A stretch of DNA of 40,403 nt from Bacilli bacterium (lineage in GTDB: Bacteria > Bacillota_I > Bacilli_A > RF39 > UBA660): assembly GCA_017515795.1 (NCBI GenBank), contig JAFWEE010000016.1, positions 1-40,403 on the forward strand. The letters run 5' to 3'. Shown piece after piece: positions 10,743 through 14,110 of the stretch. The notes below the pieces were generated by a model. The model was given only the letters and a program-made list of their open reading frames with translations, made no database searches and was not told where the DNA came from. A program made the position numbers and the translations under genes. Each line of letters begins with the position of its first letter. Positions within the stretch are counted from its first letter, which is position 1.

Positions 10743-10771
10743 ATTATAACACTAATGAGTATATTATTCAA
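10743..10771 (-). promoter_or_regulatory. Promoter of HD gene, inside the methyltransferase 3' end
   Basis: On the minus strand, TTGAAT (-35, 10766-10771), 17-base spacer, TATAAT (-10, 10743-10748). The -35 box lies in the last coding codons of the upstream gene. Confidence 0.7.
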
Positions 10772-11540
10772 ATTTTTGAAGTATATCTAAAACATGTCTT
10801 CCGGCTCCTAATAATTCTGGGTATTCACATGTTTTTAAGTGATAATCAAAGAATATATCTAATGTTTTATTATCCATTTTATTTACACTTTTTTTAATAT
10901 ATTCAGTTGGACCATCTTGAGATAATATGGTTACTCTAGATAGGTTAGAGTTCTCTAATAATTTGTTAATATCATCTAATCTTACAAATGAGTATAAATC
11001 ATCCTCTTTAGAGGTAATTTTATAGTCATTATTTACACGTTTATTATCTATTTCACTAATTATATTATTATCTATAAAACCATGCGTAATAAGGGCATAT
11101 TCATTCATACAATAACTAATAAATATATAACCATTATTTTTAGTAACTCTTTTAGCTTCATTTAATGCTTTTAATTTATCTTCATAAGATATTAAATGAT
11201 ACATAGGTCCAAATAAGAGAGTAATATCATATGTATTATCTTTTATCATAGAAAGATCTATAGCATTCCCTAATATGCATTTAATATCTTTATTATTCTT
11301 TTCTATTACTTTTAGATTATGTTTAACAAGTTCTACTGCTGTTACATCATAACCTTTATCACTATAATAAATAGAGTATTTACCTGTTCCAGCTCCTATA
11401 TCTAGTATTTTATTATTAGGTTTAATATATTTATCTATATAATATAAAGCAGTCTTAAATTCTATGTTACCATGTTTAGTATTTAATCTTTTATCTTCAT
11501 TAAACTTATTATAGTATTTTATTAGATTTTCTTCATTCAT
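10764..11540 (-). CDS. SAM-dependent class I methyltransferase, 258 aa
   Basis: A Rossmann-fold methyltransferase. Motif I is LDIGAGTGKY (about 46-55), followed by an acidic strand end (VTAVEL), then GNAIDL and the motif IV-like region YDITLLFGPMYHL, and a post-motif sequence EAKRVTKNNGYIFIS typical of Methyltransf_11/25-type enzymes. The substrate is not evident. I place the start at ATG 11540 because AGGTGAT precedes it by 4 bases; an upstream in-frame ATG at 11630 would add a hydrophobic, non-family stretch and run over the promoter region. The promoter is divergent from, and overlaps, that of the eight-repeat protein. Most likely a small-molecule methylase. Confidence 0.88.
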   Translation of the reverse strand: MNEENLIKYYNKFNEDKRLNTKHGNIEFKTALYYIDKYIKPNNKILDIGAGTGKYSIYYSDKGYDVTAVELVKHNLKVIEKNNKDIKCILGNAIDLSMIKDNTYDITLLFGPMYHLISYEDKLKALNEAKRVTKNNGYIFISYCMNEYALITHGFIDNNIISEIDNKRVNNDYKITSKEDDLYSFVRLDDINKLLENSNLSRVTILSQDGPTEYIKKSVNKMDNKTLDIFFDYHLKTCEYPELLGAGRHVLDILQKFE

Positions 11541-11556
11541 ATTATCACCTAAAGAT

Positions 11557-11585: not shown

Positions 11586-11600
11586 TAGATATATTATAAT
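11572..11600 (+). promoter_or_regulatory. Promoter of eight-repeat protein gene
   Basis: TTGTTT (11572-11577), 17-base spacer, TATAAT (11595-11600). The two divergent -35 boxes form TTGTTTAAAAACAA (11572-11585), so polymerase can hardly occupy both at once. Confidence 0.7.
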
Positions 11601-11624: not shown

Positions 11625-13568
11625 ATGCAAAGAAAAAGTATTATGTATAAGGGTGTAACTTTAACTAGTTATTGTAAGAGTAATAATTTGCCCATTAGTC
11701 CAATATATTCTTTTATTAGACGTGCTAAAGATAATCCTAAGTATAATTCTATGTCAGATGAGGAAATAGTAGAATTAGCAATAGAAAATAGTTTAGATGA
11801 TAGTTTATATAATTATAGAGGGATATCTTTAAAAACATATTGTGAAGAGCATGATTATCCATTTAATATAGCTATGATTCAACTTAAATATCTTAAGAAT
11901 AGATATCCAACATTAAATAATAAAGAAATAACTAATCTAGTAGTAGAGTATTATATAATTCCATCACTTGCATTATCTTATAAGGGAGTATATTTATTTG
12001 AGTTTTGTAAGGATAATAATTATTCTTATAGTTCACTAAAAGAGTTTATATATGATGCTGCAGAAACTAATCCGTTTTCTAAATTAGAAGATATAGTTAA
12101 ATTATATATAGAACAAGAACATAAAGGACGTTTTAAATATTATTATAAAGGAGTTCCTTTAATAGAGTACTGTAAACAAAATAATCTTAGTTATACATCT
12201 ATTATTGCTTATATAGGAAGACTAAAGGATAATGGAGATTTAGATGGTTTAAATGATACTCAAATAATTGAAAAAGTAATGAAATCATATAAGCCAGTAG
12301 AAAAGAGAATGTATAAGGGAAAATCTTTAGCTAAGTATTGTGAAGAAAAAGATATTAGTTATAGCTATGTATTAGCTCTTCTTAAAAAGAAGAAAGAAGA
12401 AAATCCAAATATTAGTGATAATGATCTAATAACTAAGATAGTAGATAGTATTAAAAATGATAGTATTAAATATTATTATAAAGGATTATCTTTAGAAAAG
12501 TATTGTAGAGAAAACAAATTGAATATTAGTTCTGTTAGAAAAGCAATAAAAGATAAAATTAACGCTGGTGATAATAGACCTATAGAAATAATAATAGATG
12601 AAGTTATGAAAAAATATGAGTCTGTTATTACAAAGTATTGCTATAATGGAATACCACTTAGTTATATATGTGAAAAATTAGATATAGATTTTAATAAAGT
12701 GTTATATAGATATAAAAGAGATTATCAAAACAGTGATATTCCTATGGATGAAGCATTTAAAACTTTACTTAAAGTATTCATAGAAAAGAAAATAAAAAAA
12801 GTTCAATATACTGTAGATGGTATGCCTTTATATGATTATTGTGAAAAAAATGAATTACCATATTATACAATTATAAATTATATAAAAGTAATTAAAGCAG
12901 AAGATGAAAACATATCAGATGAAGAAGTTACTAAAGAAGCAATAAAAAAATATAAAAAACAAGTATATGATGATAAAGCTAATCAAATATTTATCTATTT
13001 AACTGCTAATAAAATAGAGGATATTAATAAAGCTAGAGAATTATGTGATACTTTAAGAATAGATTTTGAAAATGTAATAGACTCTAATCAAGAAGGATTA
13101 TCATATGATAAAGCAATATTACTTATTTGGTATTTTGCAGATAGTAGGGGACGTAAAAACCGCCCAATGGTTTCAGGGAAAACATTAGAGGTAGTTCTAG
13201 GATTTGCTAGTTATTTAAAAACTAGACCATCATTAGATAAAGTAAAACTGTTTTTATTAATAAGAGTTCATAAATGTAAATTATATGATGCTACTAACGA
13301 AATACTTATCAAAGAAACTAAATATATTAATGGAATAATTGATAAATATTCTAATAAATATGGTATTACTTTAGATCATATTAAATCAACTGAATTAATT
13401 AGTAATTATATTATGAAAGCAATAGATAATTCATTTTTTAATAGGGAAGATAAATTAATGGAATATATAGACCAAACTGTAAATACTATGTTTGATTCAT
13501 ATATTAATAAATATTTAATTGGTAATGAACCTAAAACTTTAGAATATAAACCAAAGGAAGAAGAATAA
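11625..13568 (+). CDS. Eight-repeat protein with possible HTH-like units, 647 aa
   Basis: I do not recognise a named family. Residues 1-450 are eight tandem units of 55-57 residues. Each has the motif Y-x-G-x-x-L-x-x-[YFI]-C with glycines at 10, 66, 121, 176, 232, 287, 342 and 399 and a cysteine exactly seven residues later in all eight (17, 73, 128, 183, 239, 294, 349, 406). After it come an N-x-[LIY]-x-[YIF] turn, a helix, and often SDEEI at the start of a third helix. L-x-x-YC-x-x-N-x-L-S-Y-x-x-V-x-x-x-I resembles a helix-turn-helix, so a multi-unit nucleic-acid-binding array is a reasonable guess. Residues 450-630 form a separate helical C-terminal domain with no motif I know; the tail is acidic (PKEEE). 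No signal peptide or membrane helix. GGTGGTGAT precedes the ATG. It is monocistronic with its own promoter and terminator. Confidence 0.8.
   Translation: MQRKSIMYKGVTLTSYCKSNNLPISPIYSFIRRAKDNPKYNSMSDEEIVELAIENSLDDSLYNYRGISLKTYCEEHDYPFNIAMIQLKYLKNRYPTLNNKEITNLVVEYYIIPSLALSYKGVYLFEFCKDNNYSYSSLKEFIYDAAETNPFSKLEDIVKLYIEQEHKGRFKYYYKGVPLIEYCKQNNLSYTSIIAYIGRLKDNGDLDGLNDTQIIEKVMKSYKPVEKRMYKGKSLAKYCEEKDISYSYVLALLKKKKEENPNISDNDLITKIVDSIKNDSIKYYYKGLSLEKYCRENKLNISSVRKAIKDKINAGDNRPIEIIIDEVMKKYESVITKYCYNGIPLSYICEKLDIDFNKVLYRYKRDYQNSDIPMDEAFKTLLKVFIEKKIKKVQYTVDGMPLYDYCEKNELPYYTIINYIKVIKAEDENISDEEVTKEAIKKYKKQVYDDKANQIFIYLTANKIEDINKARELCDTLRIDFENVIDSNQEGLSYDKAILLIWYFADSRGRKNRPMVSGKTLEVVLGFASYLKTRPSLDKVKLFLLIRVHKCKLYDATNEILIKETKYINGIIDKYSNKYGITLDHIKSTELISNYIMKAIDNSFFNREDKLMEYIDQTVNTMFDSYINKYLIGNEPKTLEYKPKEEE
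11652..12990 (+). repeat. Eight degenerate ~165-base coding repeats
   Basis: The repeats are conserved at protein level rather than DNA level; copies are strongly diverged in sequence, so the array is old and stable. Unit boundaries fall near every 55-57 codons, starting at the Tyr-x-Gly motif of each unit. Confidence 0.8.
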
Positions 13569-13583
13569 TTTCTTCTTTTTTTG
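13558..13583 (+). terminator. Terminator after eight-repeat gene
   Basis: AAGAAGAA (13558-13565), loop TAAT, TTCTTCTT (13570-13577), then a T-run. Confidence 0.75.
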
Positions 13584-13626: not shown

Positions 13627-13703
13627 TGGACCCTTAGCTCAGTTGGTAGAGCAACTGACTCTTAATCAGTGGGTCTAGGGTTCGAATCCCTAAGGGTCCA
13701 CCA
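13627..13703 (+). tRNA. tRNA-Lys (anticodon CTT), CCA encoded
   Basis: Acceptor TGGACCC pairs fully with GGGTCC A. Anticodon stem ACTGA/TCAGT with loop CTCTTAA gives anticodon CTT (AAG codons). T-arm AGGGTTCGAATCCCT. CCA is encoded at 13701-13703. It is followed by a T-rich stretch without a hairpin. Confidence 0.95.
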
Positions 13704-13724
13704 TTTATTTTTTTAATTTATCTA

Positions 13725-13753
13725 TTGACTAATAGATTTAAATAAGGTAGAAT
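13725..13753 (+). promoter_or_regulatory. Promoter of tRNA-Ile/tRNA-Glu
   Basis: TTGACT (13725-13730), 17-base spacer, TAGAAT (13748-13753), about 27 bases before tRNA-Ile. Confidence 0.6.
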
Positions 13754-13779
13754 TATAAAGCAATGGGGAAGCTTATTAT

Positions 13780-13856
13780 GGACCTATAGCTCAGCTGGTT
13801 AGAGTGCACGCCTGATAAGCGTGAGGTCGATGGTTCAAGTCCATCTAGGTCCACCA
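13780..13856 (+). tRNA. tRNA-Ile (anticodon GAT), CCA encoded
   Basis: Acceptor GGACCTA pairs with TAGGTCC, discriminator A, CCA encoded. Anticodon stem CACGC/GCGTG with loop CTGATAA gives GAT. T-arm ATGGTTCAAGTCCAT. It lies 9 bases before tRNA-Glu, so the two share a transcript. Confidence 0.96.
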
Positions 13857-13865
13857 TTTATATTT

Positions 13866-13942
13866 GGCCTATTGGTGAAGTGGCTTAACACACCGCCCTT
13901 TCACGGCGGCATTCATGGGTTCGAATCCCGTATAGGTCACCA
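13866..13942 (+). tRNA. tRNA-Glu (anticodon TTC), CCA encoded
   Basis: Acceptor GGCCTAT pairs with ATAGGTC (one G-U), discriminator A, CCA encoded. Anticodon stem CCGCC/GGCGG with loop CTTTCAC gives TTC. A terminator follows directly. Confidence 0.95.
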
Positions 13943-13951
13943 TATGAAAAT

Positions 13952-13977
13952 AACTAACATTTATGTTAGTTTTTTTA
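13952..13977 (+). terminator. Terminator after tRNA-Glu
   Basis: AACTAACAT (13952-13960), two-base loop, ATGTTAGTT (13963-13971), then a T-run. Confidence 0.85.
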
Positions 13978-14006
13978 TTGCTTTTATTTTTATAAAATGT
14001 TAAAAT
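13978..14006 (+). promoter_or_regulatory. Promoter of tRNA-Ser
   Basis: TTGCTT (13978-13983), 17-base spacer, TAAAAT (14001-14006), directly after the previous terminator. Confidence 0.55.
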
Positions 14007-14019
14007 TAAGTAGTCAGCT

Positions 14020-14110
14020 GGAGTGGTACTCAAGAGGCTGAAGAGGCGTCCCTGCTAAGGATGTAGACCGGGTAACTGGTGCGAGGGTTCAAATCCCTCC
14101 CACTCCGCCA
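14020..14110 (+). tRNA. tRNA-Ser (anticodon GCT), CCA encoded
   Basis: A 91-base class II tRNA. Acceptor GGAGTGG pairs with CCACTCC, discriminator G (usual for serine), CCA encoded. Anticodon loop CTGCTAA gives GCT (AGC/AGT codons). The long variable arm GACCGGGTAACTGGTGC is present. Confidence 0.95.

Follow-up and report, generated by a model that had tools for sequence, protein, structure and literature searches.

Eight tandem helix-turn-helix-like units joined to a putative sigma-70-like domain in a lineage-restricted protein family of uncultured Bacilli

A gene in the genome of an uncultured gut bacterium of the Bacilli encodes a protein of 647 amino acids, in which eight tandem units resembling helix-turn-helix (HTH) modules are followed by a domain that, by homology to its relatives and by its predicted fold, appears to be sigma-70 region-2-like. 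The gene occupies positions 11625..13568 of the forward strand of the window, that is, the whole stretch of 40,403 nucleotides analysed here. We are highly confident of this architecture, an array joined to a sigma-like part. With somewhat better than even confidence, the protein is read as an array-anchored sigma-like regulator, present in the window as a derived copy that lacks region 4. To our knowledge, none of the known sigma factors carries eight HTH modules in tandem, and no tandem-HTH sigma factor was described in the part of the literature covered by our search. The architecture, together with the movement between bacterial genera of close relatives that retain a complete sigma part, points to an array-guided transcription regulator of a kind not yet described. 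If this is true, the family would join, in one natural protein, a reader of long DNA addresses to a domain that recruits polymerase, and the array might be useful as a small, modular scaffold for binding DNA. Passage from genus to genus as little more than an open reading frame (ORF) would be unusual for a sigma factor, and the question arises as to which genes are switched on by such proteins in small-genome gut Bacilli.

The ORF is intact and starts with ATG behind a GGTGGTG leader. The motif G-x2-L-x2-[YFI]-C is found at residues 10, 66, 121, 176, 232, 287, 342, and 399, with 55-57 residues from one motif to the next. A preliminary description of this DNA had reported eight tandem units of that length with an invariant spacing of Gly, Leu, and Cys, and G-x2-L-x3-C is indeed present in all of them; the Tyr two positions before the Gly, given there as part of the same pattern, holds in seven units and is replaced by Val in unit 8. 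By profile matching, units 1 to 8 could be placed at 11640..11804, 11808..11972, 11976..12137, 12138..12302, 12306..12470, 12471..12635, 12636..12797, and 12807..12971, all on the forward strand. When every unit was held out in turn and compared with a profile of the other seven, scores of 12.7-55.7 bits were obtained, whereas 1000 shuffles per unit peaked at 9.9-12.8 bits. Since the held-out scores exceed those of the shuffles, except for unit 7 (the weakest, tied with the best of its shuffles), the units are beyond chance. They are followed by a helical linker domain (residues ~450-535; 12972..13229, +) with a conserved A-x-x-[LM]-I-W-Y-F motif, which may be a degenerate ninth unit. Amino acid identity to unit 1 among the eight units is only 12-37%, and the units are therefore old, with no recent copies. 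Their age and their maintenance by selection, proposed earlier, agree with a unit-by-unit collinearity with relatives: in 7 of 8 cases a unit of the window protein matches best the unit of the same number in the relative, a level reached by 5 of 100,000 permutations.

The C-terminal part of the window protein (approximately residues 450-635) is helical in an AlphaFold model, with pLDDT of about 85-95. A separate helical C-terminal domain with an effector-like role had been anticipated from the sequence; such a domain was found, and its probable identity is sigma-70 region 2 (residues ~536-632; 13230..13520, +). No significant direct match of the window protein to sigma profiles was observed, and the assignment comes through its relatives. 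The relatives of ~750 amino acids extend about 100 residues past the end of the window protein, and the last 200 residues of all 14 relatives compared are matched by TIGR02937 (sigma70-ECF), the best at 1.4e-12 and above the curated cutoff. Pfam Sigma70_r4 was detected in one relative (L118) at 6e-7, above the gathering score, and a profile of the relatives' C-termini matched RpoD/SigA region 4 in the PDB at 4e-5. In the model of a second relative (L112), built like that of the window protein with relatives in the alignment, residues 541-643 fit region 2 of SigI6 with Z 10.7 (98 residues, 3.2 A), and residues 683-745 fit region 4 of SigD with Z 9.5 (61 of 62 residues, 1.8 A), middling Z values of this kind being common among helical folds. 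Among the matches listed in the fold search with the L112 C-terminus, all 50 were sigma factors, and those listed for the window protein were sigma-factor structures or region-2-based scaffolds, the Foldseek E-values of these sigma matches being not significant. PDB 9n9q, an RNA-guided transcription complex, also appeared in the fold-search matches. A region-2 profile (type-B) built without the window protein matches it with an E-value of 8e-11, a level that, among 6681 ORFs, no unrelated one reaches, and the window model aligns with SigB region 2 (VIA-align) with Z 10.8 and 2.6 A over 90 residues.

In sigma factors, the main contact with core polymerase lies in region 2, which also melts the -10 element; the -35 element is recognised and bound by region 4, and promoters are normally located by means of the factor's own regions 2 and 4. 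The window protein aligns with its relatives through region 2 and then ends, without region 4, which is also absent from its three positional orthologues and from one further relative (L125). The family is therefore sigma-like, and the window copy is not a complete sigma factor.

Relatives were identified by whole-genome search. As had been proposed, a unit profile was run against related genomes and the units were counted, giving matches in 33 of 386 genomes and 24 of 150 genera of the host family. A phylum-wide draw of 392 genomes yielded two with matches, both from this same family; the protein family is lineage-restricted. Named records of the relatives come from uncultured Bacilli and include Candidatus Onthousia faecavium; for many of them the isolate label reads Lapin (rabbit), and some are from ruminants. 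Most complete relatives have 743-760 amino acids and eight units at matching positions, and the full-length ones show 30-35% identity with the window protein across ~650 amino acids. The full form of ~750 amino acids, which is found in other genera, is probably ancestral. Split or truncated copies also occur, as do array-only proteins in which no sigma domain is recognised (L122, with two in a row, L126, and L129) and short forms in which one or two units accompany a sigma-region-2-like part (L131 by profile, L130 by eye). Because both array-only and short sigma-bearing forms exist, the array and sigma parts seem to recombine or to get lost independently.

In the window, the gene lies between a divergent methyltransferase gene (10764..11543, -) and a tRNA cluster for Lys, Ile, Glu, and Ser (13628..14110, +), and three species of the same genus carry it at the same place. 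In a sister species (G011), the methyltransferase gene directly adjoins the Lys end of the cluster, the flanks being aligned and no gene lying between them. A candidate -10 box that matches the consensus TATAAT (11595..11600, +) could be read upstream of the gene, and TATAAT with a TTTGGTGGTG-like leader is common to the window gene and many relatives. An AT-rich hairpin with a T-run, resembling a terminator, was read over the stop codon (13558..13582, +); it was not listed by a consensus scan. Given the candidate -10 box and the hairpin with its T-run at the stop codon, the gene is probably transcribed on its own.

By protein identity, the gene product has changed far more rapidly than its neighbours. 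The window protein and that of G006 are 28% identical, as against 88% for the methyltransferase, and between G006 and G002 the array protein is 27% and ZnuA 94% identical. In the unsaturated comparison of G010 with G002, the values are 60% for the array protein and 91% for the methyltransferase, with dN/dS of 0.47 and 0.17, respectively. A dN/dS of about 0.95 in the most diverged orthologues was not accepted as positive selection, these comparisons being saturated. The rapid divergence could reflect decay, although, in the AT-rich DNA of three sister species, reading frames of about 650-740 codons have remained intact. In the tree, the window protein groups weakly (82/85), on long branches, with a paralogue from another locus, and either the four same-site proteins form one orthologous line or the window copy is a replacement. 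This paralogue is found near the gene for elongation factor P (EFP) in two of the three sister species (L013:6462-8997 and L015:637-3409) as a version split into three ORFs with 3, 2, and about 5 units, the C-terminal domain being on the last, downstream of EFP and a tRNA-Arg gene. At the corresponding place in the window, unrelated ORFs are present (647-1812).

The full form consists of eight hairpin-HTH units, the helical linker domain, and sigma regions 2 and 4. While the data show the architecture, the homology, the mobility, the polymorphism of the site, and the divergence, the mechanism that we infer comprises DNA binding, polymerase binding, and a direction of regulation. The array would bind an extended, unit-ordered DNA site, where the sigma part would dock RNA polymerase and thereby start or bias transcription. 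In the genus of the window, the gene was gained (or lost in the sister species) between the methyltransferase gene and the tRNA-Lys operon, and the window copy may serve as an array-anchored co-factor with region 2 only or may compete with the main sigma factor. Without region 4, either the array would have to replace this region or the protein would have turned into a repressor or polymerase competitor. The strongest alternative, which we consider possible and yet unlikely, holds that the window copy has lost promoter initiation and is now a DNA-binding repressor, a nucleoid scaffold, or a polymerase decoy. Its array would still bind DNA, and the residual region-2-like domain would sequester core polymerase or would only aid dimerising or folding. 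It is favoured by the missing region 4 in the window protein, its positional orthologues, and L125, by the very high divergence at this site, and by the relatives that consist of the array without a sigma part; on the other hand, the region-2-like fold has been kept, with high pLDDT, and the long frames of the AT-rich sister species are still open.

Besides its restriction to one host lineage, the family is characterized by movement within it. In the 55 pairs formed by 11 complete relatives, the identity of this protein shows no correlation with that of the housekeeping GTPase Obg (r = 0.0007), and dS of the array-sigma gene is below that of Obg in 54 of the 55 pairs; because divergence does not follow that of the host and dS lies below that of Obg, the relatives are horizontally mobile between genera. 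In the clearest case (G292 and G327, from two genera), Obg is 57% identical with dS of 0.97, compared with 91% and 0.20 for the array-sigma protein; all genomes are metagenome assemblies, in which contigs may have been binned wrongly, but each copy is on a contig of its own and the flanks are not the same. The neighbours differ almost everywhere (including TatD, DnaJ-like, LytTR regulator, NUDIX, RelA/SpoT, KilA-N, GH25, and transglutaminase), and DNA similarity between copies stops close to the ends of the ORF. For most pairs of mobile copies dN/dS is 0.15-0.30 (0.40 for the most distant), and the mobile form is therefore under purifying selection.

This mobility raises the possibility, to which we give little credence, of a selfish gene that regulates an integrative element or is its DNA-binding partner and serves its own spread rather than the host. 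In addition to transfer between genera, such a gene would be in keeping with the location of several copies near tRNA or tmRNA genes, with the split or truncated copies, and with one locus (L108:2641-15271) where a candidate defence gene (PADLOC PDC-S56) and an eight-unit sigma gene that starts 24 bp behind it lie between two units of serine recombinase and Mob-type relaxase. Most copies, by contrast, have no adjoining recombinase; no terminal repeats or flanks are shared around the mobile copies, and IS-like ends were rejected on these grounds; no relative was found in the phages, plasmids, and viral contigs searched, where one weak phage match corresponded to two units within an HNH endonuclease; and a single site is conserved in four species of the window's genus. 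PADLOC models gave no meaningful match to four family members.

With regard to the units, an AlphaFold model computed from 22 family sequences gave the same order in all eight: a short hairpin formed by the YkG.sL stretch, helix 1 with the Y-C position, and, after a turn, helices 2 and 3. The proposed HTH likeness of the units is upheld by this model and by the scores of the window protein on HTH families (NCBIfam IS66 TnpA 7e-13, BcepMu gp16 3e-9, and PHROG 925 HTH 1e-7). Regular units are thus predicted throughout, while the placement of units relative to one another is not reliable, with array pLDDT mostly 65-85, which makes unit folds fair, and pTM 0.40, within a range of 0.36-0.40 for the models. 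Searches of Pfam, NCBIfam, PHROGs, and PADLOC with the window protein returned HTH-like or chance matches only, and a sequence search of the PDB found neither a solved relative of the unit nor a match to the window protein. A grip of the array on a long stretch of DNA is plausible. The order of the units and their unit-specific residues are kept across relatives, as would fit a TALE-like array in which a code lets each unit read a fixed number of bases. The suggestion that each motif cysteine might be a redox or metal site had to be given up: in unit 6, 10 of the 11 full-length relatives carry Ala at this position, and in other units V, A, L, S, or Q may stand there. This pattern suits a small residue buried in helix 1. 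Because the units are near neutral in charge overall, not every one need bind DNA. It is improbable that they are instead protein-protein (helical repeat scaffold) or RNA-binding modules with a purely structural HTH likeness, as their near-neutral or acidic character (unit 7 of L112 has a net charge of -7) and the lack of a solved relative by sequence might imply, given that the best family matches are DNA-binding HTHs, that the second helix of several units contains basic residues, and that the units are joined to a sigma factor.

Comparison with known systems further places the array-anchored sigma-like regulator favoured here. The ECF- and FliA-like sigma-70 factors (TIGR02937 and TIGR02479) share regions 2 and 4 with the relatives by profile and fold, and with the window protein a region-2-like fold without region 4; unlike in these factors, about 540 residues (eight HTH units and the linker) precede the sigma part here. 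MzaA, the sigma factor of the MZA anti-phage system (NF041931), is also large (a model of ~726 positions) with a C-terminal sigma domain and, by score, comes closer than any other large sigma protein. Only the sigma part is matched, and weakly, with about 13-24 bits where the cutoff is 800 (best about 23.5, in a relative, among the full proteins listed), and membership was rejected; no MZA partner genes were seen beside the copies examined. IS66 TnpA (NF047593) and BcepMu gp16 (TIGR04111) share the HTH unit pattern, and their cutoffs are passed by summed weak unit matches. They are small proteins with a single HTH, in contrast to the eight-unit array here, which has no adjoining IS66 partner genes. 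An identity as IS66 TnpA was rejected in view of the length of the window protein, its eight units, and its neighbours (methyltransferase, tRNAs, and ZnuA); with a score of 48.9 against a cutoff of 28 bits on the NCBIfam model, automatic annotation could mislabel it as an IS66 TnpA accessory protein. TALE and PPR modular arrays and RNA-guided sigma complexes offer an analogy only, in that a row of similar modules, or a guide, could direct a domain that recruits polymerase to a chosen DNA site; they differ by the absence here of module homology and of an RNA guide, and a code of one unit per base would be hypothetical. A bolder version of this idea, which we put forward as speculative and rather doubtful, is a mobile array-aimed sigma factor whose eight ordered HTH modules would read a long DNA address, whose fused sigma domain would bring RNA polymerase, and which would be re-aimed in each lineage by divergence of the units.

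Several additional observations were made around the relatives. Copies lie near tRNA or tmRNA genes at L109:10188-10558, L118:9765-9838, L112:6717-6886, L114:4861-4934, and window:13628-14110, the distance being about 150-190 bp in L109 and L118. A dispersed intergenic repeat occurs near several mobile copies, and at two of these it contains an identical ORF for a hydrophobic peptide of 25 amino acids, MTKREFSQFIIILLLFLVVIILLLK (L112:7090-7164 and L113:4481-4555, both on the reverse strand), with promoter-like sequence and a hairpin on the opposite strand; this region resembles a type I toxin-antitoxin module, located near the two copies. A protein of 950 amino acids (L128:7545-10394) is made up of some eight repeats of another kind (YIELLNNG...FSNG..I..FW..NK...EL...PKY..GYE.AK, with no meaningful NCBIfam match), followed by a single YkG-L-C unit. 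Moreover, the array-only genes at L122:2374-4929 (7+7 unit matches, G207) and L129:2069-2872 (4 unit matches, G300, of the same genus) lie beside the same conserved chromosomal genes, and the G300 array resembles a deletion fusion of the two G207 arrays, that is, unit recombination.
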